This document shows, in pieces, positions 13,460 to 26,041 of a DNA stretch of 27,175 nucleotides (positions are counted from its first letter, which is position 1; each line of letters begins with the position of its first letter). Below the pieces are notes generated by a model. It saw only the letters and a program-made list of their open reading frames with translations, was not told the origin of the DNA and searched no databases. The stretch spans positions 1-27,175 of the IMG/VR virus record IMGVR_UViG_3300033149_006339. One strand, given 5' to 3'. The stretch comes from a virus. The translations under genes and the position numbers were made by a program.

Positions 13460-13470
13460 TAGTTAATAAA

Positions 13471-13519
13471 GTAAATAAATTTACAAAATTAATTGATAAA
13501 TAAAAGTTAATTGATTAAC
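13471..13519 (+). repeat. Palindrome array upstream of TerS
   Basis: GTAAATAAATTTAC (13471-13484) and GTTAATTGATTAAC (13506-13519) match the GTnnATnnATnnAC rule. A decayed unit (13488-13501) lies between them at the 17-bp period. The array sits 11 to 60 nt before the TerS start codon, between it and a terminator. Confidence 0.7.
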
Positions 13520-13522
13520 AAA

Positions 13523-13547
13523 AACCCCAAGGATGAACCTTGAGGTT
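13523..13547 (-). terminator. Rho-independent terminator before terS
   Basis: On the minus strand AACCTCAAGG pairs with CCTTGGGGTT (10 bp including one G-U), with a 5-nt loop, followed by TTTGTT. It would end leftward transcription coming from upstream just before the terS leader, so packaging genes would need readthrough or their own promoter. A candidate promoter on the minus strand is TAGATT-17-TATAAT at 13640-13612. Confidence 0.7.
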
Positions 13548-13567
13548 AATGTCAGGTAATCTGAATA

Positions 13568-13754
13568 TAGAAACCATCAACTTTTCGGGCAGATTATTAA
13601 ACACAAATAAAATTATATTTTTTTCACTACGCAGAATCTATACGATGGCCAGCGATCGCATAATTCTCCGTAATGAAAAATCAATAAAGTTAATTAATCA
13701 ACAAAGTTGATCAATCAACAATTTTATTAACAATCTACCTATGGATGGTTTCTA
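13568..13754. repeat. Nested inverted-repeat region (possible pac site or origin)
   Basis: Three nested arm pairs share one centre. The outer pair is 13568-13578 with 13744-13754 (11 bp perfect). The middle pair is 13591-13600 with 13727-13736 (9 of 10). The inner pair is 13620-13637 with 13663-13680 (16 of 18). The inner loop contains GCGATCGC. It lies between TerS and the nuclease gene, with no ORF. This is the usual place of a packaging initiation site, but a replication origin or structured RNA is equally possible. Confidence 0.6.
13689..13719 (+). repeat. Two-unit palindrome array
   Basis: GTTAATTAATCAAC (13689-13702) and GTTGATCAATCAAC (13706-13719) are separated by AAA (17-bp period). 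They lie inside the nested inverted-repeat region, in the right half. The first unit has one mismatched arm position. Confidence 0.7.
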
Positions 13755-13755
13755 C

Positions 13756-13785
13756 GTATCGCTAGTACACCAACCCTAACGATAC
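13756..13785 (+). other. Stem-loop with ACACCAA loop
   Basis: GTATCG (13756-13761) pairs with CGATAC (13780-13785). After one mismatch, TAG pairs with CTA, leaving the 10-nt loop TACACCAACC. The loop resembles the ATACACCARA loops at 15438, 17794, 19066 and 19441, but shifted by one position. The transcribed strand is not known here. Confidence 0.5.
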
Positions 13786-13811
13786 ATCATACCTATTATG
13801 AAGTATATATC

Positions 13812-13851
13812 AAAAAATAAAAAAAGTCAAGGTTTTATTGTGGATAACCTT
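13812..13851 (-). terminator. Terminator at end of VRR-NUC gene
   Basis: On the minus strand AAGGTT (13851-13846) pairs with AACCTT (13834-13829) and is followed by GAC and a T-rich tract. The stem overlaps the stop codon (13829-13827). Its loop contains TTATCCACAA, an exact DnaA-box match, probably by chance. Confidence 0.65.
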
Positions 13852-14165
13852 ATATTATTCCACCATTTTTTAAATTCTGAAAAATCTTTAGCCACAAACG
13901 ACAATCCACCGAAGTATTCTATATTCTTTAAAAAACCTTTTTGCTCTAAAGAAAGCCTGTCTTTTCCTATTTTAACCTCTATCGCTACTAACCGGCCATA
14001 AGGTGGAATTATTGCCAGTATATCTGAAACACCTTTTTTAGAGGCCACCCTCCATCTATTTATACGGGAATCAAACAAACCAGTAGATGAAGCCCGCCAC
14101 GCATAGCCACCTGTCTTGTAAATATAATTGATTATATCATTGGTTAATTCATTTGCTTTTGACAG
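13827..14165 (-). CDS. VRR-NUC-type endonuclease
   Basis: This is a predicted structure-specific or PD-(D/E)XK-like nuclease of the VRR-NUC family. The frame has GGYAWRASSTGLFDSR..., then KKGVSDILAIIP (the G-V-SDI motif with catalytic D), LVAIEVKIGKDRLSLEQKGFL (E-x-K catalytic pair followed by LS-x-EQ), and a C-terminal GGLSFVAKDF. All core elements are present. No in-frame ATG precedes the conserved YAWR segment. A TTG at 14078 would delete it, so a non-ATG start is inferred; I place it at CTG 14165, 1-2 nt from the predicted transcription start. A Holliday-junction or repair nuclease role is inferred from the family. It stands alone between two terminators/promoters. Confidence 0.75.
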   Translation of the reverse strand: MSKANELTNDIINYIYKTGGYAWRASSTGLFDSRINRWRVASKKGVSDILAIIPPYGRLVAIEVKIGKDRLSLEQKGFLKNIEYFGGLSFVAKDFSEFKKWWNNIRLSTIKP

Positions 14166-14173
14166 ATATAGTT

Positions 14174-14202
14174 AGGATACAATAATTTAGAATTTTAGTC
14201 AA
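14174..14202 (-). promoter_or_regulatory. Promoter for the VRR-NUC gene
   Basis: Minus-strand TTGACT (14202-14197), 17 nt, TATCCT (14179-14174). The predicted start (about 14167) falls 1-2 nt before the inferred CTG start, so the message would be leaderless. Confidence 0.55.
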
Positions 14203-14253
14203 GTTGATAAATCACGAGCATGGATGGGGATTTTTCCCTAGAAATAAAGGAAA

Positions 14254-14309
14254 GGGAGTTGGGGATTGGGAGTTGGGGATTGGGAGTTGGGAGTTGGGAG
14301 TTGGGGATT
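14254..14309 (+). repeat. G-rich heptamer tandem array (8 units)
   Basis: Eight contiguous 7-bp units follow the order GGGAGTT, GGGGATT, GGGAGTT, GGGGATT, then three GGGAGTT, then GGGGATT. Every unit has three or four Gs, so G-quadruplex formation is possible on this strand. It lies in the divergent non-coding region between the leftward nuclease gene and the rightward early genes. A role in replication initiation or control is possible; heptamer arrays of this kind also occur as neutral repeats in other bacteria. Confidence 0.85.
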
Positions 14310-14371
14310 GAAAATTATTGGTCTTGACTTTTTCCTAAGAGCAGGTTCTAATACAGATAGCTGATTCTTAT

Positions 14372-14395
14372 ATATATGTATATATATACATATAT
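14372..14395. repeat. 24-bp AT-only-type palindrome
   Basis: A perfect 24-bp palindrome centred at 14383/14384, AT except for one G and one C at 14378 and 14389. It lies 60 nt from the heptamer array. Easy melting or cruciform extrusion suits an unwinding element. The rest of 14310-14578 holds no ORF that I support, only AT-rich sequence and a 10-nt A-run near 14435. Confidence 0.7.
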
Positions 14396-14578
14396 TTTTT
14401 TTTCAATATTAGGGTAACATACAAGTTAACGTTAAAAAAAAAACATTTAGGGTATACTCCTCTCTACGATAGGGCTAACTGATTTTGTATAAATATAGTA
14501 AAAATGAGGGTTTTTGCTATTTACAAAATTAAAAGATGTTGTGTAATTTATTATCTGAGGGGGTGTTGATAACTACTA

Positions 14579-14619
14579 TTGACAAATTTTGGTAGAGAGT
14601 TACCATATAGATATGGTAA
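14579..14619 (+). promoter_or_regulatory. Early promoter with overlapping palindromic operator
   Basis: TTGACA (14579-14584), 16 nt, TACCAT (14601-14606). A 20-bp palindrome (arms 14600-14608 and 14611-14619, TTACCATAT/ATATGGTAA) covers the -10 region and the ATG at 14613. The transcript would begin at or next to the ATG, giving a leaderless message. The protein encoded is a ribbon-helix-helix type, so auto-repression is likely. Confidence 0.65.
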
Positions 14620-15017
14620 AGAAACATAAAATCTTCCTAATGATGTCGGATCGTGAAAAGGAAATCTTGGAAGCTATTAAGGAGAAATTAGGTGGTAATA
14701 CCTCTGAAATTATTAGAGGACTTATTAGAGAGAAATATGTCAAGATGTTTCCTGAATATACTCAAGCTAAGAAAGAGAAGACTCCTAGACAGAAATTTTT
14801 TGATTCTCTTGAGTTACAGGAGCCTAAGAAACTTTGTGAATTTTTAGGTGGTGAGATAGTGATAGATGAGGGAATAGAAAAGTGTTTTAAAGGTAAAGTA
14901 ACTCCTTATGGTAGAAGTGGAACTTATTTAGATTTAAAGAAAAGTGTTTTGGTTCCAGAGATAAAGGCCAGATTTAATGCTGGTGAGATAGATATACCAG
15001 AAGAATTTTTAAAATAA
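14613..15017 (+). CDS. Ribbon-helix-helix regulator
   Basis: This is a 134-residue protein counted from ATG 14613; the upstream in-frame TTG (14589) lies inside the promoter and is rejected. Residues 3-11 form a short strand (KKHKIFLMM), 12-26 a helix (SDREKEILEAIKEKL) and 29-44 the second helix (NTSEIIRGLIREKYVK), the classic MetJ/Arc/CopG fold with the N-T-S-E-I-I motif. The C-terminal 80 residues (about 55-134) are an unrecognised domain with KLCEFLGGEIVID and GRSGTYLDLKK. It is the first gene of the rightward region, under an operator-bearing promoter and closed by a terminator at 15043-15072, so it is probably a phage repressor or early regulator. Confidence 0.75.
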   Translation: MVKKHKIFLMMSDREKEILEAIKEKLGGNTSEIIRGLIREKYVKMFPEYTQAKKEKTPRQKFFDSLELQEPKKLCEFLGGEIVIDEGIEKCFKGKVTPYGRSGTYLDLKKSVLVPEIKARFNAGEIDIPEEFLK

Positions 15018-15042
15018 ATTGGCCATAACATCTTTTGGCCAC

Positions 15043-15072
15043 ACCCCCCTATTTTTTGAGGGGGTCTTTTTT
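15043..15072 (+). terminator. Rho-independent terminator after RHH gene
   Basis: ACCCCC (15043-15048) pairs with GGGGGT (15060-15065), 11-nt loop, followed by CTTTTTT. It separates the regulator gene from the next promoter at 15274. From 15073 to 15273 there is no ORF I can support. The stretch holds a small hairpin (GTTAGA/TCTAAC at about 15086-15102), a CCCCTAA/TTAGGGG pair (15074-15080 with 15198-15204), and a GC-rich patch near 15115. Confidence 0.8.
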
Positions 15073-15273
15073 ACCCCTAACTTCTGTTAGATAGTCTCTA
15101 ACCTTGACCACCTTTTCGCGCGGGGGTCGGCTCGTTTTCTGTTTTTATGGAAACATTGATAAACTTTAGTAAAAAATAATAAAAAAACAAAATGATTTTT
15201 AGGGGTTAGGTAAAAATATAGTAAAAATGCGATTTTTAGGTTCGCTTTATATAATGAAATGCGTTATTAACAC

Positions 15274-15301
15274 TTGACAGATTTTCTGGGTTTGATATAC
15301 T
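15274..15301 (+). promoter_or_regulatory. Promoter for structured RNA/early transcript
   Basis: TTGACA (15274-15279), 16 nt, TATACT (15296-15301). The predicted start at A15308 coincides with the first paired base of the RNA described next. Confidence 0.75.
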
Positions 15302-15307
15302 CCCTTT

Positions 15308-15479
15308 AGAGAGTTTAAAAAAAAAGGAATTAAAAAATATAAAATATAGAGGCCAACAAGTAAGAAAAACATCTGGGCTTTAATCTATATTTTATATTCC
15401 GGCCACTAAACACTGGCCACTAAACAAGAGTTTAAACACACACCAAAGTTTAGATTCTTGTATCTCTTTTAAACTCTCT
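15308..15479 (+). ncRNA. Structured RNA closed by a 13-bp end helix
   Basis: P1 pairs 15308-15320 with 15467-15479 (13 bp, perfect). P2 pairs 15336-15350 with 15384-15398 (15 bp, perfect, 33-nt loop). P3 pairs 15424-15437 with 15448-15461 (14 bp including G-U pairs) around the 10-nt loop ACACACCAAA. A 12-nt direct repeat (GGCCACTAAACA, 15401 and 15415) lies between P2 and P3. G-U pairs appear only on this strand, so the RNA is the plus-strand one. The 5' end equals the predicted transcription start. It may be a discrete ncRNA or the first part of the leader of the gene at 15587. After it (15480-15557) only small hairpins are seen. Confidence 0.7.
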
Positions 15480-15586
15480 CCGGGAGTCGCAATTGAATAA
15501 ATTGCCCTTCTCTTTTAGGGTTTTCTCGGAGGTCAACGTAGTAAAACCTTTAAATTACCAGTTAACCGCTGGCTGGTTCATTAAAA

Positions 15587-15895
15587 ATGGCAATTAAAAT
15601 TGTATCTACTAAAACATTTAATAAACCATATTGGAATAAAAACGATATTGAAAACTGGTTGATTAAAAATGGAGTTAAAAATAATGATTATGTATCTATA
15701 GATGGAGTTAATAATAGAGTTTATGATGTTCTTAAAATTCAAGAAGTTAAAGAATATATCCCTGCTATACCTAAAATTAAATTGAAACTAAAAAGAATAG
15801 TAAATAAATATGGTTGTCAATATCAAGTTTATTATAAGATATTAAAAACTTGGAACGATGAGGTTGAAAATAGTTTTTATTTGAGAATATATTGA
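15587..15895 (+). CDS. Unrecognised 102-aa early protein
   Basis: The family is not recognised. It is lysine/asparagine-rich and looks mixed alpha/beta. Residues 1-35 (IKIVSTKTFNKPYWNKNDIENWLIKNGVKN) and 40-60 (SIDGVNNRVYDVLKIQEVKEY) show a strand-turn-helix order. The C-terminal part (PKIKLKLKRIVNKYGCQYQVYYKIL) is basic. No Shine-Dalgarno sequence precedes the ATG; a boxA-like GGTTCATTAAAAA runs up to the start codon. The leader segment 15558-15576 is complementary to 15911-15928 behind the stop. A nucleic-acid-binding small early protein is a guess. Confidence 0.6.
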   Translation: MAIKIVSTKTFNKPYWNKNDIENWLIKNGVKNNDYVSIDGVNNRVYDVLKIQEVKEYIPAIPKIKLKLKRIVNKYGCQYQVYYKILKTWNDEVENSFYLRIY

Positions 15896-15900
15896 AACTA

Positions 15901-15932
15901 TATCCCGGCTCCACCAGCGGGGGGCTGGGATA
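15901..15932 (+). other. Hairpin whose loop can pair with the gene's own leader
   Basis: TATCCCGGC (15901-15909) pairs with GCTGGGATA (15924-15932, one G-U). The loop contains CCACCAGCGG (15911-15920), complementary to CCGCTGG-c-TGG (15566-15576) just before the start of the 102-aa gene. No T-run follows. Confidence 0.55.
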
Positions 15933-16623
15933 CTCTCCACCTTAACAACTGATTATAAACTCTATTATAGCGGTTCTTATTTATGACTAAAAAAGCAATG
16001 ATTAAATATATTTCATCTTTTGAAATCTACCCTACAATGAATAGCTGGAATAGAAAATATGGCTATTCCTTCAATGTTAAAATTTATAATTTACCATTAA
16101 AAGATGAAGAAAAAAATAAATTATATGAAATCATAGGAGATGAAAATTTATCAGAGTGTTTTTATACAGATATTTATGATTTAATTGAAGTATGGAGATA
16201 TGCGAATATTAAATTGTTTGGGGTGCATAGAGATGAAAATATTAAAAATATAGAATATCCTAATTTTACAGCTTTTCTTAACGGCAGAAGTTCAGGACAT
16301 TTAGTTTTAGGTAAATGGAACGGCTACAATTATTGTGGTTCTGGCTGGTGTTTCACAGAGGAGGAATTAAAAGATATGTCTAAAGAAGATGTAAGATATA
16401 TTTACAAAGTATTAAGAGAATTTGAAAAATTATATAAAAGCATTATCAAATTATGTAGATATTATGCCAACCGCAAAATAGAAGAAAAGACAATAGAGGA
16501 AGTAAAAACAATAAAATATAAAACCTTTACTGATTAAATTATTAACTCAATCGTGGGTTAATTACAACATCCGCTAACACCGCAATTGATAGAGTTTATA
16601 ATTAGCTTTTAGGGTGGAGAGTA
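15931..16623 (+). other. Gene-bracketing RNA complementarity (about 39 bp) around the 184-aa gene
   Basis: Upstream segments 15931-15945, 15949-15967 and 15970-15974 are complementary, in the right nested order, to 16609-16623, 16587-16605 and 16579-16583. They give 15, 19 and 5 base pairs, separated by a symmetric 3 by 3 internal loop and a small inner loop. The three non-Watson-Crick positions are all G-U on the plus strand. The helix ends 8 nt before ATG 15983. The 16538-16608 stretch also holds a local hairpin (ATTAAC/GTTAAT). Confidence 0.75.
15983..16537 (+). CDS. Unrecognised 184-aa early protein
   Basis: The family is not recognised. The protein is rich in aromatic residues and appears globular, alpha/beta. 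Conspicuous motifs are FLNGRSSGHLVLGKWNGYNYCGSGW (about 95-118; NGRSSGHLVL is typical of small phage proteins of unknown role) and a C-terminal helical, lysine-rich part (about 125-184). There are three cysteines but no clear metal site. Its start has no Shine-Dalgarno; GGTTCTTATTT directly precedes ATG. The gene is enclosed by the long complementary arms described separately, so its translation or mRNA stability is likely structure-controlled. Confidence 0.65.
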   Translation: MTKKAMIKYISSFEIYPTMNSWNRKYGYSFNVKIYNLPLKDEEKNKLYEIIGDENLSECFYTDIYDLIEVWRYANIKLFGVHRDENIKNIEYPNFTAFLNGRSSGHLVLGKWNGYNYCGSGWCFTEEELKDMSKEDVRYIYKVLREFEKLYKSIIKLCRYYANRKIEEKTIEEVKTIKYKTFTD

Positions 16624-16632
16624 GATAATAAC

Positions 16633-16654
16633 AAAGAACATCGGCGGGTTCTTT
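16633..16654 (+). other. Leader hairpin with ATCGGCGG loop
   Basis: AAAGAAC (16633-16639) pairs with GTTCTTT (16648-16654), loop ATCGGCGG. The loop can pair (8 bp, one bulged G) with CCGCCGGAT in the loop/stem of the terminator at 17206-17240. The hairpin ends 9 nt before ATG 16664, and its 3' arm is part of a boxA-like GTTCTTTAAAAAC. Confidence 0.65.
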
Positions 16655-16663
16655 AAAAACAAT

Positions 16664-17161
16664 ATGCAATTTAATTTCGCAACTTTAAGGCAATACTTGC
16701 AAGATTTATTTTTTAATCCTAACAACAACATCAAAAGACACGCTAAAGGATTATTAAAAGAGATAGATAAAGACAATAAACTAAAAGATGAGATTGACAC
16801 CTTGCTTGTGGTAAAAGATGATAAAGAAGTTTTAATTGATATATGGAGGAGGAAGGAGCGTTTATACTGGACAGAACAAGCTGAACAGGCAGCAAAAGAT
16901 ATTTTTAATTCAATGATAGATAAATATGACAAAGATTATACAGAAAGGCAAAAAGATGATTATTTTAATGATTACGCAATGGAATATATAGAAGGATATT
17001 TTACCTATTATCACACAGCTTGGGAGTATTTAATGGTTGCATCTCCGGAATATGAAGGCGAAGTGTTTGATACTACTTCACCGGTAGATAACCAAATCAC
17101 ACAGCTGGCAATTACAACCTTCACAAACCAAGTAAGAGATTATTATGACAGAATAAAATAA
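16664..17161 (+). CDS. Unrecognised 165-aa acidic helical protein
   Basis: The family is not recognised. It is strongly helical and acidic with repeated polar helices (residues 25-60, KRHAKGLLKEIDKDNKLKDEIDTL) and aromatic-rich parts around 95-125 (YFNDYAMEYIEGYFTYYHTAWEYL). There is no signal peptide or membrane helix. Acidic, aromatic small early proteins of phages often mimic DNA or bind host proteins, but nothing specific shows this. The leader hairpin and the downstream terminator carry complementary loops, so expression of this gene and of the one behind it may be coupled. Confidence 0.65.
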   Translation: MQFNFATLRQYLQDLFFNPNNNIKRHAKGLLKEIDKDNKLKDEIDTLLVVKDDKEVLIDIWRRKERLYWTEQAEQAAKDIFNSMIDKYDKDYTERQKDDYFNDYAMEYIEGYFTYYHTAWEYLMVASPEYEGEVFDTTSPVDNQITQLAITTFTNQVRDYYDRIK

Positions 17162-17205
17162 TTTATATTATTCTCTTCTTATCTCGTGGGTATAACCCAC
17201 TACAT

Positions 17206-17240
17206 AAAAAGACACTATGACCGCCGGATAGTGTCTTTTT
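17206..17240 (+). terminator. Strong rho-independent terminator
   Basis: AAAAAGACACTAT (17206-17218) and ATAGTGTCTTTTT (17228-17240) form a 13-bp perfect stem with loop GACCGCCGG and a U-run in its 3' arm, and the sequence after it is AT-rich. A further small hairpin (GTGGGT/ACCCAC, 17186-17200) precedes it. It lies between the 165-aa gene and the 144-aa gene, which has no clear own promoter, so readthrough or antitermination is needed. Confidence 0.85.
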
Positions 17241-17275
17241 ATTATTTTATTAACTTTTACAGCTCTTTAACTTAA

Positions 17276-17710
17276 ATGTCCGGTAGCGATGATTGGTTTA
17301 AATTTATGACTACTACTAATGGCTTTACTAAAATAAACAATACCCAGCGCAAGGCGTTTGCTCAACTTATAGAAAATAAAACAGGTAAAAAAAGAGATGA
17401 TGATGATTTTGAAATATTAAAAGAAAAAGAAATGAAAAAAGAATTAGAGCGTTTAAGGAAAAAATACAAAAAAGAAATTGAAATTTATTTAAAAGGGAAA
17501 CAAGCAGAAAGAAAATTAGAAAAGGTCGGTTTATATACAAGTGGTGATGAAATTGAATTAGGTTGGAGATTAAAAGAAAAAATTGAAGCAAAGATTAAAT
17601 CAAAAAACAACCATTATAAAGAAAAAGCTATCAGGGATATTTGGTCGGTTCAAACATTGGAGGAAGCTAAAAAAATTGTAGATGATTACTTCTCCCTGTT
17701 CATAGATTAA
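17276..17710 (+). CDS. Unrecognised 144-aa lysine-rich coiled-coil protein
   Basis: The family is not recognised. Residues 1-30 include SGSDDWFKFMTTTNGFTKIN; residues 40-85 are a charged helix/coiled coil (KRDDDDFEILKEKEMKKELERLRKKYKK). The rest is helical with a C-terminal IDDYFS-like aromatic end (IVDDYFSLFID). There are no cysteines, membrane segments or enzyme motifs. The ATG lies inside the boxA-like/complementary arm 17261-17284, and no Shine-Dalgarno precedes it. It probably needs readthrough of the terminator 17206-17240. Confidence 0.6.
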   Translation: MSGSDDWFKFMTTTNGFTKINNTQRKAFAQLIENKTGKKRDDDDFEILKEKEMKKELERLRKKYKKEIEIYLKGKQAERKLEKVGLYTSGDEIELGWRLKEKIEAKIKSKNNHYKEKAIRDIWSVQTLEEAKKIVDDYFSLFID

Positions 17711-17716
17711 ACCATT

Positions 17717-17766
17717 GTAGATTTATTTACTTTTGTAGATTTATTTACTTTTGTAGATTTATTTAC
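17717..17766 (+). repeat. Three-unit palindrome array (GTAGATTTATTTAC)
   Basis: Three identical units, GTAGATTTATTTAC, at 17717, 17735 and 17753, separated by TTTT (18-bp period). It belongs to the same GTnnATnnATnnAC family as those near portal and TerS, in reverse orientation (A-run on the other side). It follows the 144-aa gene stop by 6 nt. Confidence 0.8.
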
Positions 17767-17781
17767 TTTTATTTAAATTAT

Positions 17782-17815
17782 CTATTGGCTGTTATACACC
17801 AAAAACAGCTAATAG
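17782..17815 (+). ncRNA. Stem-loop with ATACACCAAA loop
   Basis: CTATTGGCTGTT (17782-17793) pairs with AACAGCTAATAG (17804-17815), 12 bp with one G-U, around the 10-nt loop ATACACCAAA. It is one of five such stem-loops in the window. The stem is unrelated in sequence to the others. Confidence 0.7.
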
Positions 17816-17878
17816 GTTGGCTAATTAACTCAATCAATCACTCGCCGGACATTTAAGTTAGGGAGTTATAATTTGGTT

Positions 17879-17909
17879 GTAGGTTTATTTACTTTGTAGG
17901 TTTATCTAC
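17879..17909 (+). repeat. Two-unit palindrome array
   Basis: GTAGGTTTATTTAC (17879-17892) and GTAGGTTTATCTAC (17896-17909), separated by TTT (17-bp period), 11 nt before the ATG at 17920. It is the second unit group of the family in this intergenic stretch. Confidence 0.7.
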
Positions 17910-17919
17910 TTTCATAATT

Positions 17920-18075
17920 ATGGAATATCAATATCAGCAAAAAAACTTTAATGAAACCTTGATTAAAAAGCAACATAAAAAAGATTGCCGGCTGTTTATT
18001 TTGGGAATAGCCGGCGTGGTCGTTTATTACATTATAATGGCGCTTCTGTTTTGTCGGGAAGCGTGCGTATTATGA
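17920..18075 (+). CDS. Small single-pass membrane protein (51 aa)
   Basis: This is a 51-residue frame (ATG 17920 to TGA 18075). Residues 1-23 are polar (QYQQKNFNETLIKKQHKKD), residues about 25-44 are a hydrophobic segment (LFILGIAGVVVYYIIMALLF), and the end carries two cysteines (LLFCREACVL). It reads as a small membrane protein, N-terminus in the cytoplasm. The stop overlaps the ATG of the next gene (ATGA), which supports it as real. The role is unknown; small membrane proteins in this position can be lysis-timing or exclusion factors. Confidence 0.55.
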   Translation: MEYQYQQKNFNETLIKKQHKKDCRLFILGIAGVVVYYIIMALLFCREACVL

Positions 18076-18308
18076 GGGTTGGAGAAAAAGTAAAAGTTAT
18101 CAACACTCATATTAAAAACAAGCCCCGCGCTTTTGCCGGAGTGTTGGAAAAAATCGGGCGGTTTAGGTCGGGGTTTGTTTATGGTCGTGTTTACAATTCT
18201 GATACAGGGGAAAGATATTACTTTGCTATTACTGATGTCTATCCCCTGAATAATAATGAAAAACCGCAGGAAAAACAACAAACAGCGCAGGGTAATATGC
18301 TTTTTTAA
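18072..18308 (+). CDS. Small beta-barrel/KOW-like protein with clamp-motif-like end
   Basis: This is a 78-residue protein from ATG 18072 (ATGA overlap with the previous gene); a longer start at 17985 lies inside that gene and is rejected. Residues 1-60 look like a small beta-barrel (EKVKVINTHIKN...FAGVLEKIGRFRSGFVYGRVYN...YYFAITDVYPL), with the EKVKVI...GVLEKIG pattern of SH3/KOW-like folds. The tail is a flexible linker ending in QGNMLF at the very C-terminus. That resembles sliding-clamp-binding peptides (Q-x-x-[LM]-[LF]-F-like), and a clamp-like gene lies two genes on. This link is inference. Confidence 0.6.
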   Translation: MRVGEKVKVINTHIKNKPRAFAGVLEKIGRFRSGFVYGRVYNSDTGERYYFAITDVYPLNNNEKPQEKQQTAQGNMLF

Positions 18309-18411
18309 AGGAAAGGCAAAAGATTTAATGCCGTTTCTTAAAGTTTTGGCTCGTGAATATGAAAACGGGCTGGTCGGTTATATTAATGGCAAGTATATTT
18401 ATCTTAACTGA
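18256..18411 (+). CDS. Small basic protein (51 aa)
   Basis: This is a frame from ATG 18256 (overlapping the previous gene by 53 nt) to TGA 18411; an internal ATG at 18328 is preceded by AGGAAAGG, one of the better Shine-Dalgarno matches, and would give 27 residues. The longer product has an RR/KK-rich start then GKAKDLMPFLKVLAREYENGLVGYING. The end (about 25-51) looks like a short alpha-beta piece (FLKVLAREY, GLVGYINGKYIYL). No family is recognised. Either start may be used. Confidence 0.45.
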   Translation: MKNRRKNNKQRRVICFFKGKAKDLMPFLKVLAREYENGLVGYINGKYIYLN

Positions 18412-18429
18412 TAGATATATTTATAAATT

Positions 18430-19041
18430 ATGCTTTACAATAAATTTAATTTAGAAGTTAGTAAGTTTGCAGGAGATAGTTATGGTTCTAAACCAGAGTT
18501 AGGGGGAGTGTTCTTTACTTCTCGGGCGACAGCGGCAAGCGATGGTTATAAATTGATAGAAGTTAGTGTTCCAAGCGAGTTGAAGCCGGAGGAATACCCG
18601 AGTGTTAACGGAAAGAAAGCGATGAGGGGTTGCCGCCCGTTTATAGTGCCGGCGCCGGCGTTGAAGGAAATTAAGATAAATAATGGTAGTTCGTTGCCAA
18701 TATTGAATTGTATAGGTGTTGGTCATTTAGATAAGGAAAAGGTGGAGTTTTTAAATACCAACCTTGATGAGAGTGAAATTAAAACTATTAAAAAAATAGA
18801 AGCAAAGTATCCGGATTATCAGCAGTTGTTTAATCAAGAAAAGCCAGTATTGGAAATATCGGTTAATGCTAAATACTTAAAAGAAATAATGGACTTTATG
18901 AGTAAATTCGTTGATACGGGGTCAAAAGAAGTAAAAATAAAACTTTATGGTTCAAATAAGCCGATTATGTTTACAGCGGAAAATAACAGCACTCGCCAGA
19001 AAGTTCGGGCTTTGTTGATGCCGATTACTACAACTAAATAA
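18430..19041 (+). CDS. Short DNA sliding clamp-like protein
   Basis: This is a 203-residue protein, whose C-terminal part (about residues 130-200) resembles the last domain of bacterial beta clamps (DnaN): PVLEISVNAKYLKEIMDFMSKF, KEVKIKLYGSNKPIMFTAENN, then the near-terminal RALLMPI that corresponds to the Y-x-LMPM-x-L end. The N-terminal part contains RATAASDGYKLIEVSVP, like the a-TDG-y-rL strand of clamps. At 203 residues it is much shorter than DnaN (about 370), suggesting two rather than three domains. It may be a phage clamp or a clamp paralog interfering with the host clamp. No Shine-Dalgarno sequence is seen. It lies just before a large structured RNA. Confidence 0.65.
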   Translation: MLYNKFNLEVSKFAGDSYGSKPELGGVFFTSRATAASDGYKLIEVSVPSELKPEEYPSVNGKKAMRGCRPFIVPAPALKEIKINNGSSLPILNCIGVGHLDKEKVEFLNTNLDESEIKTIKKIEAKYPDYQQLFNQEKPVLEISVNAKYLKEIMDFMSKFVDTGSKEVKIKLYGSNKPIMFTAENNSTRQKVRALLMPITTTK

Positions 19042-19050
19042 GGCGCTTGA

Positions 19051-19460
19051 TGTTGCCGGTTATACATACACCAGAGTATAGTCGGCAACAATGAGGCGCT
19101 TTGTAAATTTATTTACCTTAACATCAATAATTATTAAGACAAACAGAGAATGGTTAAGTTCGGTTGTCGGTTAAACTCACCGCGCCATTAAAACTTAATG
19201 CTGGCTGTTTGCTTGAAATTATTGATTGCGCCTCAACCTTGACATCAGCTTGTTTAAGCCGGTAATGCCCTTTCCGTTAATAAGGGCTGGCGTATCGGAA
19301 ATAGACGATTGGGCATAGGGCAACCGCAGAGCTTGGGACTATGAGGGAAACCTCCTCTCAAGCGGCAACTCTATTGTGATTTACCCGGTATCACATAAAT
19401 AGAACCGGGAGCGTTGCAGAGGGGCGCAATGAGTTTAAATATACACCAAAATTTAAACTC
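19051..19460 (+). ncRNA. About 410-nt structured RNA with pseudoknot
   Basis: Elements in order are as follows. Stem-loop 19051-19090 (15 bp, two G-U; loop ATACACCAGA). Palindrome unit GTAAATTTATTTAC (19103-19116). A 22-bp helix 19123-19146 with 19205-19226 (two bulged As). A closing helix 19226-19234 with 19421-19429 (one G-U). Hairpin GCTTGGGA/TCTCAAGC (19331-19338 with 19356-19363) with an inner GAGG-GAAA-CCTC tetraloop. An H-type pseudoknot: 19375-19380 with 19390-19395, and 19384-19389 with 19404-19409. Hairpin 19431-19460 (10 bp, loop ATACACCAAA). All wobble pairs fit plus-strand RNA. There is no ORF I can support in 19042-19542. A standalone RNA or a large leader of the next genes; no match to a named class is known to me. 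Confidence 0.7.
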
Positions 19461-19542
19461 GTTAAAAATCTGTCTTTAAAATTTGAATATCAAAAGCGTC
19501 CGGCTTAAAGCGGTGAGGCGTTTTTTGGTATTCGCTTTGTTT

Positions 19543-19749
19543 ATGAAAAAAAATAAAAAAACATTTTATCATAACATTTGCTCTATAGAGCATTGTGGAA
19601 AAATAGCTCGCTTTAGAGAATTCAGAATATATGAAATTTGGTCGTTAGATGAAGAAGGAGATGTTAAAAAAATGATTTATAAAGAAAATGAATGTGATGA
19701 GGATTTGGCATTGTGCGAGGAACACGCTCGTGAAGCGGGCTGGATATAA
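19543..19749 (+). CDS. Small zinc-ribbon-like protein
   Basis: This is a 68-residue protein from ATG 19543; the longer frame from TTG 19483 starts next to the RNA's last hairpin and adds a basic stretch of little sense. Pattern: a lysine-rich start, then CSIEHCGKIARF (C-x4-C), an intermediate strand region, and ECDEDLALCEEHAREAG (C-x2-H). The C-x4-C...C-x2-H arrangement is a zinc-binding motif seen in small phage and bacterial proteins. Its role is unknown. It ends just before the palindrome that precedes the helicase gene. Confidence 0.65.
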   Translation: MKKNKKTFYHNICSIEHCGKIARFREFRIYEIWSLDEEGDVKKMIYKENECDEDLALCEEHAREAGWI

Positions 19750-19750
19750 A

Positions 19751-19764
19751 GTTGATCAATCAAC
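19751..19764 (+). repeat. Single GTTGATCAATCAAC palindrome before helicase start
   Basis: A perfect copy of the unit seen near portal and TerS, preceded by AAA, ending 4 nt before the ATG at 19769. If it forms a hairpin in the mRNA it lies where a ribosome binding site would be; if it binds a protein it may be an operator. Confidence 0.75.
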
Positions 19765-19768
19765 AATC

Positions 19769-21391
19769 ATGATACTAACCAAAGAGGATAATTTAATAGG
19801 AATTAAATTTGATTATAACTCCAGACTGGTAAATTTAGTTCGGAGTTTGTCTTATAGGCAGTATAATCCGGAAAAAAAGATGTGGACTATTCCGTTGGCT
19901 GGCTCTGAAGCATCTCTTCGGAGGTTGCTTAGGGCGGGATTTAAAATGGACAGCGAATTGGAAGATGCGTTAATACAAGAAAAAGAATTGAACGATGAGA
20001 TTAAAAAATTGATTAGCCGGTCTTCAGCAGAATTTCCTACCTCTCTTCCTCTGCTTAACTATCAGAGGGTGGGGGCGAAGTTTTTGGATAAGATTGGCAA
20101 TGGTTTGCTTGGCGATAGTATGGGGCTGGGAAAAACTATTCAGGCGTTGGCGATATTGGAAAAAAACAAGCCGGAAAAAGTTTTGATTATATGTCCGGCT
20201 ATATTAAAACATCAATGGAAATCAGAAATTGAGAAATTCGGTTTGGGTTGGTCGGTGGTTATTATTGAAGGAAATATCAGAGAGAGGAGAGAATTGTGGA
20301 AAAAAGAAGCTATGGTTTATGTGGCTAACTACGAATTATTGTTAAGGGATTTTGAAATGATGAATATGAGAAATTGGGATTATATTGTGGCTGACGAAGC
20401 TCATAGGATATCTAACCCGTTTGCTAAGCAGAGTAAGGCAATCAAAAGATTAACAAGCAAAAAAAGACTGGCTTTGACTGGTTCGCCTATAAGCAACAGG
20501 GCTGATGAATTGTGGAATATATTAGATTTTTTAAATCCCGGATGTGTCGGAAATTACTTTGAGTTTGTAAACAGATATTGTATTAAAAATCAATGGGGGG
20601 GAATTTTTGCTTATCAAAATTTAGAGGAGCTCAAGGAAAAAATAAAAAGATATATGATTAGGAGAACCAAGGAACAGGTTTTAAAAGAGTTGCCGGATAA
20701 AATAATTACCGAAATGCCGTTCAGGTTAAGCGACGAGGAAAGGAGTTTATATTCCTACATAAAAGAGGAAATTTTATATGAAATTAAAAAATCGGATATA
20801 AGCAAGATAGAAAATCCGATGAGTATTCAGCAGACATTGGTTAAGTTATTACGGCTTCAACAGGTGGTTAATTCAATGGAATTGGTTGGGGAAAGGCAAA
20901 AATCAAGCAAATTGGAGCTTTTAAAGGAATTATTGGAAGAGGGAATAAACAATGGGCAGAAAGCATTGATATTTACTAAGTTTGAAAAGATGACACCTAT
21001 TTTAGCCAGAGAGTTAAAGGAATACAATCCGGTTATTATTAGCGGAAAAATAAATGAAAAAATAAGACAGCAATATGTAAAAGATTTTAATGAAAAAGAA
21101 GATAATAAAATTCTCATAAGCACAAGTGCCGGTAATTACGGATTGAATTTGCAGAGAGCCAACCTCGTATTCCATTATGACCAAGAGTTTTCATTGGCGA
21201 AAATGGAACAAAGAACCGGCAGGGCTTATCGGATTGGACAAAAAAATAAGGTTTTTGAATATCATCTTTTGGCTAAGGGAACGGTGGATTATCACTTCAG
21301 AAGGATTGTCAGGAGAAAAGCCGAACTTTCTGGCACGGTTCTCGGCGATACGCCGATAACAATGGCAGAAGTTCAGCAATTATTACTATGA
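19769..21391 (+). CDS. SNF2-family (SMARCAL1-like) helicase/translocase
   Basis: This is a 540-residue protein from ATG 19769; a longer frame from 19688 overlaps the preceding gene and lacks sense, so the later start is chosen. The N-terminal part (1-60: GIKFDYNSRLVNLVRSL-x-x-RQYNPEKKMWTIPL) matches HARP-like modules of SMARCAL1-type proteins. Motif I is GDSMGLGKT (115-123), motif II DEAH (199-202), motif III LTGSP (226-230), motif V STSAGNYGLNLQ (441-452) and motif VI QRTGRAYRIGQ (471-481). It is an ATP-dependent DNA translocase, probably for annealing or fork remodelling during phage replication. Its end overlaps the recombinase start (ATGA). Confidence 0.9.
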   Translation: MILTKEDNLIGIKFDYNSRLVNLVRSLSYRQYNPEKKMWTIPLAGSEASLRRLLRAGFKMDSELEDALIQEKELNDEIKKLISRSSAEFPTSLPLLNYQRVGAKFLDKIGNGLLGDSMGLGKTIQALAILEKNKPEKVLIICPAILKHQWKSEIEKFGLGWSVVIIEGNIRERRELWKKEAMVYVANYELLLRDFEMMNMRNWDYIVADEAHRISNPFAKQSKAIKRLTSKKRLALTGSPISNRADELWNILDFLNPGCVGNYFEFVNRYCIKNQWGGIFAYQNLEELKEKIKRYMIRRTKEQVLKELPDKIITEMPFRLSDEERSLYSYIKEEILYEIKKSDISKIENPMSIQQTLVKLLRLQQVVNSMELVGERQKSSKLELLKELLEEGINNGQKALIFTKFEKMTPILARELKEYNPVIISGKINEKIRQQYVKDFNEKEDNKILISTSAGNYGLNLQRANLVFHYDQEFSLAKMEQRTGRAYRIGQKNKVFEYHLLAKGTVDYHFRRIVRRKAELSGTVLGDTPITMAEVQQLLL

Positions 21392-21954
21392 AAGCCCCCA
21401 AGATAAAAATTAAATATTTAGATGCTGAACAGATTAGAGAAATTATAAGGGGAATACCCGCCACTGAATCGGGTTTGATGTATAAAACCCTGATTGTTGT
21501 TTTATTTACTACAGGATTAAGAATTAGTGAAGCGCTTAATTTAAAAATTAAAGATTTAAAACTTGATTCTAAGATAACTCAAGAGCTTGCTGTTGTGGGA
21601 AAGGGCGGATATACAAGAACGGTATACTTTAGTCCGGATACATTAAAAATGATAAAGAAATGGCTTAGTGTAAGAAAAGGAAAAAAATACAATAAACCAG
21701 ATAAGAGGGACAGGGTTTTTCCTGTCAGTGTTAGGTCTGTTCAAAAACAGATTAAAAAATGGGCTGACTGGGCCGGATTTGAAGCTACCCCTCATACTTT
21801 TAGGCATTCTTTTGCGGTTCACACCTTGTCAAAATTGGGAAATTTAAGATTTACTCAGGAATTTTTAGGGCATAAGAGTATTCTTAATACTCAAATCTAT
21901 ACTCAAATAACCAATAAACACTTACGAAAAGCTCATGAAGAGATTTTCACTTAA
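21388..21954 (+). CDS. Minimal tyrosine recombinase (catalytic domain only)
   Basis: This is a 188-residue protein with the whole catalytic set: R45 (TTGLRISEAL), K72 (VGKGGYTR), H136/R139 (HTFRH), H162 (LGHKS), and the nucleophile Y171 (TQIYTQ). The usual N-terminal SAM-like core-binding domain (about 80-100 residues) is missing, so it is much shorter than XerC/XerD. It may be an invertase/resolvase type, a dimer resolution enzyme, or an integrase that relies on partners. It is translationally coupled to the helicase. No attachment site can be identified. Confidence 0.8.
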   Translation: MKAPKIKIKYLDAEQIREIIRGIPATESGLMYKTLIVVLFTTGLRISEALNLKIKDLKLDSKITQELAVVGKGGYTRTVYFSPDTLKMIKKWLSVRKGKKYNKPDKRDRVFPVSVRSVQKQIKKWADWAGFEATPHTFRHSFAVHTLSKLGNLRFTQEFLGHKSILNTQIYTQITNKHLRKAHEEIFT

Positions 21955-21960
21955 TCATTT

Positions 21961-22173
21961 ATGAGAAAAGAATTTCATTATTTAATGTATTGTAAAGAGT
22001 GTGGAAAAGAATTTTCGGAAAAGGAAAAAAATCCTCGTTTTCCTTATTTATGTCCGGAACATGTTGAAAAAGCTATTAAAAGAAAGAAGATGCTTGAGAG
22101 ACTTCATCGGATTCGGAAATATTCTGTGATTCTTCCGCGTTTTCTTCGTCGAGCAGGTCGCTCTCCTTTTTGA
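21961..22173 (+). CDS. Small zinc-finger protein
   Basis: This is a 70-residue frame; ATG 21985 (residue 9) is an alternative start. Pattern: MYCKECGKEFSEKEKNPRFPYLCPEHVEKAIKRKK, a C-x2-C...C-x2-H zinc-ribbon type site, followed by a lysine/arginine-rich helix. The last 33 residues are encoded antisense to the acidic tail of the ATPase gene (98-nt convergent overlap), so they look less constrained. Its role is unknown; a small accessory nucleic-acid-binding protein is inferred. Confidence 0.6.
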   Translation: MRKEFHYLMYCKECGKEFSEKEKNPRFPYLCPEHVEKAIKRKKMLERLHRIRKYSVILPRFLRRAGRSPF

Positions 22174-23353
22174 TTTTTTCAAATTTACGGACCAATTCTA
22201 TATATTTATCTTTCATTTTCCAGCGATCGCCATAGGGTCCGACACCTTTGGCTCTTTCTGCTACTTCAAGAGCAACCAATTCCTCTAATCTATATCTGAC
22301 CGTAGTGGTCGGCCGGTCTATTTTAGTGGCTAATCCGGTAGTAGTTAGTTCATTGTATTTTGCCAGTTCTTGAATTATAAGTCGCTTAGATGACGGTATT
22401 GAGTCAAGGGCTATTTTGTAAAGAATATTATGGTCTTCTGGCTGAAGTTCCATTTTGCCGGTTTCGTTGAAATTAACAACAGAAAGCGCTCTGGCCATGG
22501 TTTGTAGGGCGGCCGCCATTCTGGTTGGCATCTCCGGCGGGTAAACCTCTGTTATTTCCTGTTGGGGGCTTCTCCAGTTTCTTTCCACTTCGGATCTTAC
22601 TCTTGTTGAAAATTCAGCCAGAGATATCAGGTCTTTTTTTAATGTTTCGGGAATCTTGACTTTTTCCTTGGGTATTTCCGCGTTTTCTATATATTCCTTG
22701 GTTAAATCAGCCAGCCATCCTCTTTTTTCATCAAGTTCGCCGCTTTCTTGATTTTCCATGCTTTTGTTCGCCGCGGCTTTGGCTTCGGGTTGAATGAAAT
22801 TATAAAACAAAAATCTTTCGCCCATTGAAACATAATCCTTTTTCTTACTATGGATAGCATAGGTAGAGCCGGCAATTACCGTCACCTTGCCTGCCCACTC
22901 TTGTTTTTTGCCCGTTCCGAATTGTTTTATATATCTTCCATCGTAAATTTCTCTCATTTGAGCCATTAAAACAGATTTTGTATCTTTATTCTCTGATAAA
23001 ATTGAAGTTAAATCTTTAAATGTAATAATGCCGTTTTGTTCCTGATCGGTTCCTTTGGAAAGGTTGTGAAGTAGAGAAGCGCTTTCGCCGCCCTTGCTTA
23101 TTCCGGATAAAAATGTATTGGCGGTTAGGGTGGAAAGAGGATGAACATATTTGCATTTAGACAAAGCATTTATTATTTCGCTTTTTCCCCCAGCCGAAGG
23201 AGCCACGATAATTAGCCATATCGGATCAGATTTTAAAAGATGAGAAACATACAAGGAAACCAAGACCTTGATAATATAAGGGTCCTCCAAGAGATATACA
23301 CTTCCAAAAGCTTCTCTAAGTTTTTGAAGAGTAATTTTGTTTTTTTCTTCCAT
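22076..23353 (-). CDS. P-loop ATPase with C-terminal winged helix (replicative helicase-like)
   Basis: This is a 425-residue protein. Walker A is APSAGGKS (51-58); a Walker B-like strand is NGIITFKDL (107-115). Residues 120-200 include an AAA-like core with MAQMREIYDGRY and FGTGKKQEWAGKVTVIAGSTYAI; R in MGERFLFYNF may be the sensor/arginine finger. The C-terminal region (about 316-372) is a winged helix, TGLATKIDRPTTTVRYRLEELV, followed by an acidic low-complexity tail. This organisation fits ATPases found next to CHC2 primase domains in phages and integrated elements. It sits 4 nt downstream of such a gene, so helicase or helicase-loader function is inferred. Confidence 0.75.
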   Translation of the reverse strand: MEEKNKITLQKLREAFGSVYLLEDPYIIKVLVSLYVSHLLKSDPIWLIIVAPSAGGKSEIINALSKCKYVHPLSTLTANTFLSGISKGGESASLLHNLSKGTDQEQNGIITFKDLTSILSENKDTKSVLMAQMREIYDGRYIKQFGTGKKQEWAGKVTVIAGSTYAIHSKKKDYVSMGERFLFYNFIQPEAKAAANKSMENQESGELDEKRGWLADLTKEYIENAEIPKEKVKIPETLKKDLISLAEFSTRVRSEVERNWRSPQQEITEVYPPEMPTRMAAALQTMARALSVVNFNETGKMELQPEDHNILYKIALDSIPSSKRLIIQELAKYNELTTTGLATKIDRPTTTVRYRLEELVALEVAERAKGVGPYGDRWKMKDKYIELVRKFEKIKKESDLLDEENAEESQNISESDEVSQASSFF

Positions 23354-23357
23354 AATT

Positions 23358-24038
23358 TTATTTATTTATTAAACGACGGACTGCGGTTATGAAATCGCAT
23401 CCGTCTCTTTTCATTATAAAATCTATTGAATCCCCGGCTTCATTGCATCCATAACAATAAAAATGATTGTCCTTTAGATAAATCGCAAAGGAAGGATTTT
23501 TTTCCGGGTGAAAAGGACACAATCCCCACATTATATTGTTTTTCTTTTTTAATTGGCCGAAATAAAGAGAGTCTATGGGTATTTCCCGGGCTCGTTGAAT
23601 ATCAAAATCTGTTATCTTATTTGAATTTTGCTTGATTTCTTTTTTGTTTGGTCTTTTAAGTAGCGCTAAGTAAAAAGAATTTCTTTTTATCTTTTTTTCT
23701 TTATTTTCTTTAAGTGGTTCTAAAAATATTATATCTCTTACGAGAGTCCAGAACCACCTATCTTCCGGATTAGATTTAGAAAGAATTTTATTATTAAAAT
23801 TTATTCTTGTTTCTTCTGCTTGTTTTAAATCTTCTTTCCATTTTTTTATTTCTTGTTTGAGTTTTTTCTTAAGGTATGGTTTGGCGGCTGGAAAAATTTT
23901 TAACAATTCTTGAAAAGTATATCGGGGTTGAGACTCAAGCCATTGCTTTTCCAGTTTGTCAGCCAACATTATTTCTTCTTCATCATAAAGTCCGTATTTT
24001 CCTACATATTTATTTATTGACCAAAGATAATAAAGCAT
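23358..24038 (-). CDS. CHC2 zinc-finger primase-like protein
   Basis: This is a 226-residue protein. The C-terminal part (about 170-225) is a DnaG-type CHC2 zinc finger: WGLCPFHPEKNPSFAI, C174 and H177, then FYCYGCNEAGDSIDFIM, C195 and C198. The N-terminal 165 residues are helical and lysine-rich, unrecognised. No TOPRIM catalytic domain is present, so the polymerising part may lie elsewhere or be supplied by the host. In normal DnaG this finger is N-terminal, so its position at the end is unusual. It starts leftward from a divergent promoter region, with a DnaA box nearby. Confidence 0.8.
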   Translation of the reverse strand: MLYYLWSINKYVGKYGLYDEEEIMLADKLEKQWLESQPRYTFQELLKIFPAAKPYLKKKLKQEIKKWKEDLKQAEETRINFNNKILSKSNPEDRWFWTLVRDIIFLEPLKENKEKKIKRNSFYLALLKRPNKKEIKQNSNKITDFDIQRAREIPIDSLYFGQLKKKNNIMWGLCPFHPEKNPSFAIYLKDNHFYCYGCNEAGDSIDFIMKRDGCDFITAVRRLINK

Positions 24039-24061
24039 ATTTAATTAAACAATTCGTTAAG

Positions 24062-24070
24062 TTATCCACA
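24062..24070 (+). promoter_or_regulatory. DnaA-box match in divergent intergenic region
   Basis: TTATCCACA, an exact match to the bacterial DnaA box, lies between the leftward primase gene and the rightward HTH gene, next to an AT-rich stretch and the promoter at 24080-24108. A near match (TTATCCACT) occurs at about 24245. A single box is weak evidence for an origin. Confidence 0.5.
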
Positions 24071-24079
24071 GATTTTAAT

Positions 24080-24108
24080 TTGACGGCAGTTTAATTATAA
24101 CATACAAT
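24080..24108 (+). promoter_or_regulatory. Promoter of rightward replication genes, leaderless
   Basis: TTGACG (24080-24085), 17 nt, TACAAT (24103-24108). The start codon ATG 24116 is 7 nt after the -10 element, so the predicted transcript begins at the ATG. A minus-strand TATAAT is present at 24099-24094 for the primase gene. Confidence 0.65.
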
Positions 24109-24115
24109 ATAAAAT

Positions 24116-24334
24116 ATGGGTATACCTAAAGCTGTTGATAAGTCCAAAAAGAATAAGCGGAGGGGGGTTAAAAAAGATATTCATAAATATCCCTATTTAG
24201 TTGAAATTAGGAATGAATTAATATTAGATCTTAAAAAAAGAGGATTATCCACTCAAAATATATCAGTTATATTTTCGAGCGGATTGTCCAAGGGTCGAGT
24301 CAGTCAAATAATTAAAAATAAATTTAATAAATAA
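24116..24334 (+). CDS. Small HTH regulator
   Basis: This is a 72-residue basic protein. Residues 1-25 are a lysine/arginine-rich tail. Residues 30-66 contain a helix-turn-helix: EIRNELILDLKKRGLSTQNISVIFSSGLSKGRVSQII, where LSTQNIS and the recognition helix KGRVSQII fit HTH domains of phage repressors or of sigma-like proteins. It is the first gene of a rightward operon with the SSB-like and nuclease genes (gaps of 2 nt and overlap of 1 nt), under its own leaderless promoter. A transcription regulator of the replication genes or an origin-binding protein is inferred. Confidence 0.65.
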   Translation: MGIPKAVDKSKKNKRRGVKKDIHKYPYLVEIRNELILDLKKRGLSTQNISVIFSSGLSKGRVSQIIKNKFNK

Positions 24335-24336
24335 CC

Positions 24337-24789
24337 ATGACTAAAAACGACGAATTTCAAGAAGTTAAATCCTCAGTTGTTTCTTGGGGAAAAGTCGGCG
24401 ATTATATTCAGGGCACACTGGTTGATATAAGAATTCGCGAGGTTCAAGACGAAAAAAAGGGTTTGGTTAGGAAAAATGTATATGAAATTCTTGCTGATGA
24501 GGGACAATATCACGAAATCGATGAAAACAGGAATCCAGTTGAACCGCCGATTAAATGTGAAAAAAATGATTTTTATCAAGTATGGGGCGGAAGAGAGATT
24601 ATAGATAATGGTATGAGAAAAATAAAGATCGGCCAGAAAGTAAGAATTGTTTTTACAGAACAGCTTGAACCGAAAAAGAAAAATTATTCTGGATTTAAGA
24701 TTATTAAAGTATATGCCGGACCAATGGATGAAGAGTGGTTGAATAATCAATATCAAGAAGCGGAACCTGATGTTAATCCCGGATTTTAA
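24337..24789 (+). CDS. OB-fold/SSB-like protein
   Basis: This is a 150-residue protein. The body is strand-rich, as in OB folds (SWGKVGDYIQGTLVDIRIREV, NVYEILADEGQYHEI, FYQVWGGREIIDNGMRKIKIGQKVRIVFTEQL, GFKIIKVYAGPM), with aromatic residues in strands. The end is acidic (EAEPDVNPGF) and finishes with phenylalanine, like the C-terminal tip of SSB (D-D-x-I-P-F). It is directly coupled to the nuclease gene (TAATG). A single-stranded DNA-binding protein of phage recombination is inferred; the family is not certain. Confidence 0.6.
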   Translation: MTKNDEFQEVKSSVVSWGKVGDYIQGTLVDIRIREVQDEKKGLVRKNVYEILADEGQYHEIDENRNPVEPPIKCEKNDFYQVWGGREIIDNGMRKIKIGQKVRIVFTEQLEPKKKNYSGFKIIKVYAGPMDEEWLNNQYQEAEPDVNPGF

Positions 24790-25535: not shown

Positions 25536-25547
25536 TAAATTTAATTC

Positions 25548-25754
25548 ATGGGTCGATTTAATTCATTAATAAACAATAAACTTATTATGCAATATATATT
25601 TCAAGAAATTACCCAGAATCCGAATTCAGTGGATGCGCCGGTAGTTCCAAGCGAAGATCAGAACGATAATTCCTCAGAAGAAAATCAAGAGTCGACACAG
25701 GAAGAAACCCCGGCAGAAGAATCAACAGAAACCGAAACTGTATCTACTGAATAA
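25548..25754 (+). CDS. Short acidic low-complexity protein
   Basis: This is a 68-residue frame; an internal ATG at 25587 is an alternative start. After a short start, residues 20-68 are an acidic stretch rich in E, S, T and N (SEDQNDNSSEENQESTQEETPAEE). It has no globular pattern and lies 12 nt after the nuclease gene. Acidic tails of this kind can mimic DNA or bind basic partners. The role is unknown; confidence that it is translated is moderate. Confidence 0.5.
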   Translation: MGRFNSLINNKLIMQYIFQEITQNPNSVDAPVVPSEDQNDNSSEENQESTQEETPAEESTETETVSTE

Positions 25755-25762
25755 TTTAGTTC

Positions 25763-25974: not shown

Positions 25975-26008
25975 CTAATTTTGAGAAAGCAATTTATTTT
26001 CTTAAGAA

Positions 26009-26038: not shown

Positions 26039-26041
26039 TCT

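Follow-up and report, generated by a model that had tools for sequence, protein, structure and literature searches.

A common-loop hairpin family along the right arm of an uncultivated phage and a complementary opposite-strand loop suggest gene control by RNA–RNA recognition

The window analyzed here is a virus record of 27175 bases with 35% G+C. Its left arm carries packaging genes on the minus strand, including the large terminase (11497-13032) and a probable capsid gene (4785-5798, a weak match). The right arm is read mostly from the plus strand and contains a gene resembling a DNA polymerase processivity factor (the clamp-like gene, 18430-19041), a SNF2-type helicase gene that starts at 19769 or alternatively at 19688 and ends at 21391, a tyrosine recombinase gene (21388-21954), and small basic ORFs at 21961, 24116 and 26336. 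No tRNA gene is found in the whole window, and the record may be a fragment. In 37 of the 38 genes examined, the stretch checked for each gene lacks a Shine-Dalgarno-like motif, pointing to a host that initiates translation without one.

Between the clamp-like gene and the next start codon, the ATG at 19543 of a small ORF, lies a stretch (19042-19542) that is gene-free, as a preliminary description of this DNA had noted when it proposed a structured RNA at 19051-19460. A structured RNA is indeed present and is stronger than described there, and its interval should be widened to about 19042-19527. Extension in the 3′ direction reveals a pairing of 19228-19262 with 19500-19521 followed by a tract of six U (U6), so we place the end of the RNA near 19527. 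This element, RNA D (19042-19527, plus strand), thus begins at the clamp-like gene's stop codon and extends to the U6 tract, about 16 nt upstream of ATG 19543, with z -5.9 on the plus strand and -4.0 on the minus strand. Folding against dinucleotide shuffles gives z -5.5 (plus) and -3.8 (minus) for 19042-19482, and -7.7 (plus) and -2.6 (minus) for 19042-19542. In a scan of 182 plus-strand segments over 13401-27000, with z values that are coarse at 15 shuffles per segment, the best segment (z -7.3) and the third best (z -5.2) both fall in the RNA D stretch.

The named parts of the preliminary description are recovered with one correction. A 22-bp helix pairs 19123-19146 with 19205-19226 at pair probabilities of 0.81-1.0; it is built of 10+5+7 pairs with two single-base bulges and, with its inner hairpin, occupies 19123-19226. 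The closing helix joins 19092-19099 (TGAGGCGC) to 19228-19235 by eight perfect pairs. The GAAA tetraloop (GAGG-GAAA-CCTC, 19343-19354) caps an 8-bp stem in the hairpin at 19331-19363. The H-type pseudoknot lies at 19375-19409 on the plus strand (S1=6, S2=6, L1=3, L2=0, L3=8). No other 6+6 bp pseudoknot of this geometry occurs on either strand of the window. Pseudoknots of the same geometry and any composition arise 0.73 times per shuffled window, and those with at least 7 G/C among the 12 stem positions in none of 200 shuffles (plus strand scanned). Hairpins near the two ends, h4 (19052-19089) and h5 (19427-19464), had been credited with identical loops. Both hairpins are present, and their loops, AUACACCAGA and AUACACCAAA, agree at 9 of 10 positions rather than fully. 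An outer stem of h4 pairs 19042-19048 with 19094-19100. At 19103-19116, RNA D also contains a copy of a small box, GTARR-TTTA-YYTAC, which occurs seven times in the window (17717, 17735, 17753, 17879, 17896 and 19103 on the plus strand and 13471 on the minus strand); its sequence changes preserve pairing, and two of the seven copies lie just 5′ of a start codon.

The strand 19228-19262 of RNA D has two alternative partners, an early one at 19092-19099 and a late one at 19500-19521. The longer helix formed with the late partner is absent from the preliminary description; it competes with the closing helix and is equalled in 2 of 1000 shuffles. Folds of RNA D forced to use the late or the early partner have energies of -163.0 and -161.5 kcal/mol, respectively, a gap of 1.5 kcal/mol, and the late arm runs into the U6 tract. 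When growing prefixes of the RNA are folded, the early partner is preferred at eight of ten 3′ ends before the late arm is complete (the exceptions are 19465 and 19482), and the late partner at 3′ ends 19521 and 19527. At 19545 neither is dominant (probabilities 0.11 and 0.04), probably because a local terminator-like hairpin takes over (19488-19533, plus strand), which has U6 inside its 3′ strand and a 3′ arm in common with the long-range helix. A consensus terminator scan of 17900-20000 reports no terminator, this hairpin included. In the energy model, RNA D looks like an attenuator.

The end hairpins h4 and h5 belong to a family of four. The preliminary description missed this relationship, and also the opposite-strand loop that is complementary to theirs. 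The family occupies three gene-free plus-strand stretches, with members at 15424, 17780, 19052 and 19427, and each has a stem of 13-14 bp of differing sequence and a common 10-nt loop, AYACACCARA. Hairpin h2 (15424-15461, 14 bp, loop ACACACCAAA) lies in a structured leader, RNA B (15303-15530, plus strand, z -7.4 plus and -3.9 minus), which precedes the ORF at 15587-15895. Ahead of RNA B is a promoter-like sequence, TTGACA-16-TATACT (15274-15301, plus strand, 11 of 12 matching positions), and h2 is 123 nt downstream of its -10-like element (15296-15301). Hairpin h3 (17780-17817, 14 bp) lies in the gap 17711-17919, region C, and has the same loop as h5; h4 has 14 bp and h5 has 13. Pair probabilities of the four hairpins in context are 0.75-1.0.

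Seven plus-strand hairpins in the window combine a strong stem with a 10-nt loop, and four of them carry ACACCA at loop positions 3-8. Across 400 shuffles, the largest set of such hairpins sharing a loop motif has no member in 7 shuffles, one in 392 and two in 1. This count is the fair test of the family: the alignment of h2-h5, with pairing in 55 of 56 stem cells, variation on both sides of all 14 pairs and 8 of 10 loop columns invariant, gives pair counts that are biased toward structure by the way the members were detected, namely as hairpins. The stems have no common sequence except between h2 and h5. On the plus strand h2-h5 are nearly free of mismatches owing to G-U pairs, and on the minus strand they are mismatched or absent from the hairpins listed. 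The wobble pairs thereby assign h2-h5 to the plus strand and the hairpin h1, described below, to the minus strand.

A second strongly folded element, RNA A (13518-13796, minus strand, about 280 nt), is flanked by a VRR-NUC-like ORF and by the ORF that precedes the large terminase. Its fold score (z -12.4 on the minus strand, -7.4 on the plus strand) is the strongest measured in this analysis. RNA A is preceded by a promoter-like sequence, TTGACT-17-TATACT (13802-13830, minus strand), with 10 of 12 matching positions, a level that is common, with nine such matches in 5.6 kb of plus strand. It ends in a terminator-like hairpin, AACCTCAAGG-TTCAT-CCTTGGGGTT (13523-13547, minus strand), followed by a T-rich tail. 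At its 5′ end, starting 13 nt past the -10 of the promoter-like sequence, is h1 (13752-13789, minus strand, loop GGUUGGUGUA), whose 10 central pairs have probabilities of 0.99-1.0 and which is less well paired on the plus strand owing to G-U pairs.

The loop of h1 holds the 8-mer UUGGUGUA, which is perfectly complementary to UACACCAA in h3 and h5; it matches h4 over 7 nt plus one G-U pair and h2 over 7 nt. Computed energies of the duplexes with the h2-h5 loops are -9.3 to -10.1 kcal/mol. A strong hairpin presenting the 8-mer is found in 14 of 4000 shuffles, and an h1-like hairpin with either 7-mer in 91 of 3000. This complementarity is suggestive rather than overwhelming. Plain pairing energy fails to single out the four loops: of the 54330 ten-base stretches in the window, 567 reach -9 kcal/mol or better when paired with the h1 loop. 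Outside the loops, perfect complementarity between RNA A and regions B, C, D and E extends to at most 8-9 nt, no better than the loops themselves.

The window holds other repeats as well. The palindrome GTTRATYRATYAAC has seven copies (11441, 11458, 11475, 13506, 13689, 13706 and 19751), in tandem before the ORF at 9432-11426 and also just before the likely SNF2 ATG. The tandem repeat GGGAGTTGGGGATT (14254-14310) has four copies, and its G-rich strand is the plus strand. Region E (25755-25985, plus strand) is a strongly structured gene-free stretch (z -10.0 plus, -7.2 minus) closed by the long helix TTTTCAATGCCCCC/GGGGGCATTGAAAA and has no Rfam match.

The preliminary description likened RNA D to the large phage RNAs GOLLD and ROOL. 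That it is a large, complex, non-coding phage RNA element is supported. Kinship with GOLLD or ROOL is not: the window contains no tRNA, and the whole 27175 bases have no Rfam match at the gathering score, GOLLD and ROOL included. Between 18900 and 19650, a search up to E = 10 returns only chance matches to unrelated families, neither GOLLD nor ROOL among them, and we reject membership of RNA D in these or other Rfam families for want of a covariance-model match. Regions A, E and B give sub-threshold matches only (Hrs12, E 0.16; a sobemovirus frameshift element, E 0.09).

Searches for relatives covered collections that may omit near relatives of the record. No DNA homologue of the region is found in phages, and one 40-nt plasmid hit, in a Pantoea record, is a chance match. 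Pattern scans yield no relative with the clamp, the SNF2-type helicase or the 425-aa ORF as neighbor proteins; tblastn finds none in phages for the clamp or the 425-aa ORF, and the SNF2-type helicase has 1393 distant phage matches. Scans for the small box (47 single matches) and for the pseudoknot core (36 matches, none with the full pseudoknot) likewise give no relative. With the terminase, the whole protein or a two-row alignment finds one relative and a fragment search seven; 105 relatives were confirmed, of which 80 were kept. A further one is a MAG contig titled Aenigmatarchaeota, a label from which we claim no host. Against 84 terminase-relative loci, the right-arm proteins (14589-24789) have no match at E 1e-3, which is weak evidence for absence of the right-arm genes because many of these loci are short, and blastn of regions A-E returns only short, low-complexity or chance pieces. 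The early region of one terminase relative has folded gene-free stretches of its own, unrelated to those here (minus strand, 9030-9210 and 9560-9960, z -4.2 and -2.6).

The hairpin family was pursued with a covariance model, R1, built from h2-h5. In the window it recovers its four source hairpins, as its construction dictates, and no other sequence scores above 15.1 bits. Among the sources of relatives, one of 43 has a match, in the terminase relative L101 (15663-15699, 29.6 bits, E 0.0022). Only one copy is present there; its loop is AUAACCAAA, a T-rich tail comes next, and the hairpin could be no more than an ordinary terminator. Further sources give 0 of 49 and 0 of 75. A survey of the window and 85 names, some overlapping, finds no family of at least three hairpins with a common loop 6-mer (at least 2 G/C) in the other loci examined, and a literature search, weak because mostly off target, found no paper on AYACACCARA hairpins. 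None of the relatives examined contains RNA D, RNA A or the hairpin family. RNA D may be only a low-level, poorly conserved mRNA leader; besides being absent from relatives, it lacks a strong promoter of its own, and its U tract ends 16 nt upstream of the next gene.

Taken together, these features suggest, short of proof, that the phage controls its own genes by RNA–RNA recognition. The statistics establish, at the level of the sequence, the fold of RNA D, the strand bias of folding, the hairpin family, the loop complementarity and the two competing helices; from these we infer that RNAs A and D are produced and meet, that their meeting affects termination, and that it has a biological role. 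Our tentative proposal, which we put somewhat below an even chance, is that RNA D is a riboregulatory element read in trans by RNA A, an antisense-loop RNA resembling the P4 CI RNA. Strongly folded and acting in cis, RNA D would belong to the replication operon of the right arm; its terminator-like end lies 16 nt upstream of the next gene. Hairpin h2 in the operon leader, h3, h4 and h5 would be docking sites of one kind. Their most likely ligand would be RNA A, made as an RNA in its own right from the other phage strand and docking with its loop UUGGUGUA by loop–loop (kissing) pairing. Docking would alter transcription or translation continuing through the right arm, the likely output being read-through at the terminator-like end of RNA D, before ORF 19543 and the SNF2 gene, and it may serve as an early-to-late or lysogeny switch.

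For RNA A in this role we count the promoter-like sequence with 10 of 12 matches, the 5′ position of h1, the z of -12.4 and the terminator-like hairpin; for a switch, the two nearly equal folds of RNA D that share one strand and the second arm that runs into U6; and for the docking switch as a whole, the tyrosine recombinase gene downstream. Against it, the loop begins and ends with an invariant A that does not pair with h1, which a protein ligand explains equally well, h1 can be read as a fifth, imperfect plus-strand member of the family, and the competing folds of RNA D come from energy models only. Carried to its full extent, the proposal describes a temperate phage that makes its early/late or lysogeny switch by RNA instead of a repressor protein. 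One free RNA from the packaging side would read, with its kissing loop, four standardized hairpin ports in the replication operon; a switchable terminator element of 485 nt would contain two of these ports. We regard this fuller version as rather unlikely.

RNA hairpins can serve as protein-binding sites, boxB for lambda N and the operator hairpin for a coat protein. A distinct possibility, also short of probable, is that h2-h5 are binding sites of a phage-encoded RNA-binding protein and that the h1 complement arose by chance. Bound to the nascent right-arm transcript, the protein would let the polymerase pass terminators, such as the terminator-like hairpins at 17204-17242 and 19488-19533 on the plus strand, or would repress translation. 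The uniform length and variable sequence of the stems with a near-invariant loop fit this reading, as do the two invariant A that do not pair with h1, the placement of sites in the leader and upstream of the two terminator-like hairpins of the same operon, and the several small basic ORFs. No known antiterminator family is recognized among the ORFs scanned, however, and this reading leaves unexplained why the strongly folded RNA A begins with a hairpin whose loop is complementary (14 of 4000 shuffles). As the ligand of the h2-h5 loops, such a protein is nearly as likely as RNA A.

It is improbable, in our judgement, that processing of RNA D sets free a stable RNA of about 340-480 nt, a machine or multimer like GOLLD or ROOL with h4 and h5 as its ends. 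Its size, pseudoknot, GNRA hairpin and stable fold, and a core bracketed by h4 and h5, are in keeping with this, but it has no Rfam match, its end is 16 nt from the next gene, the same hairpin occurs singly in RNA B and region C outside RNA D, and the loops are not self-complementary, the complement of ATACACCA being absent from the plus strand. The hairpins might also act in DNA as sites for phage recombination, replication or packaging, given the tyrosine recombinase gene and the several other palindromic repeats in the genome. This we consider very improbable, as the wobble pairs favor one strand per hairpin, the strand read with the genes, and the stems have no common sequence beyond that between h2 and h5. 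If RNA A docks on h2-h5 as proposed, a single loop–loop code with several addresses would wire a phage gene network. The P4 principle would then reach to standardized hairpin ports, and the RNA switch would be compact and directly testable. With a protein as ligand, the hairpins would be a new family of phage RNA operators. Either reading would give a function-oriented reason for one large unexplained RNA of uncultivated phages.

RNA D resembles GOLLD and ROOL as a large, folded phage RNA, and ROOL also in having a pseudoknot. In the account given in PMC12286853, both are large folded phage RNAs with loop–loop contacts, and ROOL contains pseudoknots. GOLLD and ROOL often lie near tRNA islands and form homo-oligomers, whereas here the window holds no tRNA, the loops are not self-complementary and Rfam gives no match. 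The arrangement of h2 between a promoter-like sequence and the terminator-like hairpins at 17204-17242 and 19488-19533 recalls antitermination sites. The lambda nut sites (boxB) are RNA hairpins in the leader and along the early operon, ahead of terminators. The put sites of HK022 are likewise described as RNA hairpins in the leader or early operon ahead of terminators (PMC9378689). The system here differs from nut and put: its stems are 13-14 bp long, its loop has 10 nt, one arm carries four copies and a complementary loop lies elsewhere, with no antiterminator protein among the families matched. The recognition of loop by loop, and the UUGG of the h1 loop that fits YUNR, bring to mind plasmid antisense RNAs. 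Those systems use kissing loops with a YUNR turn, whereas here one RNA matches four sites that are not encoded opposite to it. As with the P4 CI RNA, a phage RNA is complementary to more than one site of the phage's own operon transcript, the h1 loop pairing 8, 8, 8 (one G-U) and 7 nt with h3, h5, h4 and h2, respectively. The P4 CI RNA, as reported in PMC4825925, binds the operon transcript by base pairing at its two targets, seqA and seqC, and thereby causes premature termination. It is processed from the transcript it controls, whereas RNA A would be made from the other strand and has a separate promoter-like sequence, and every target here is a uniform hairpin loop. By analogy, the RNA A system would thus work like the P4 CI RNA, yet it is not a member of that type because it is encoded on the other strand; the likeness claimed is one of mechanism.
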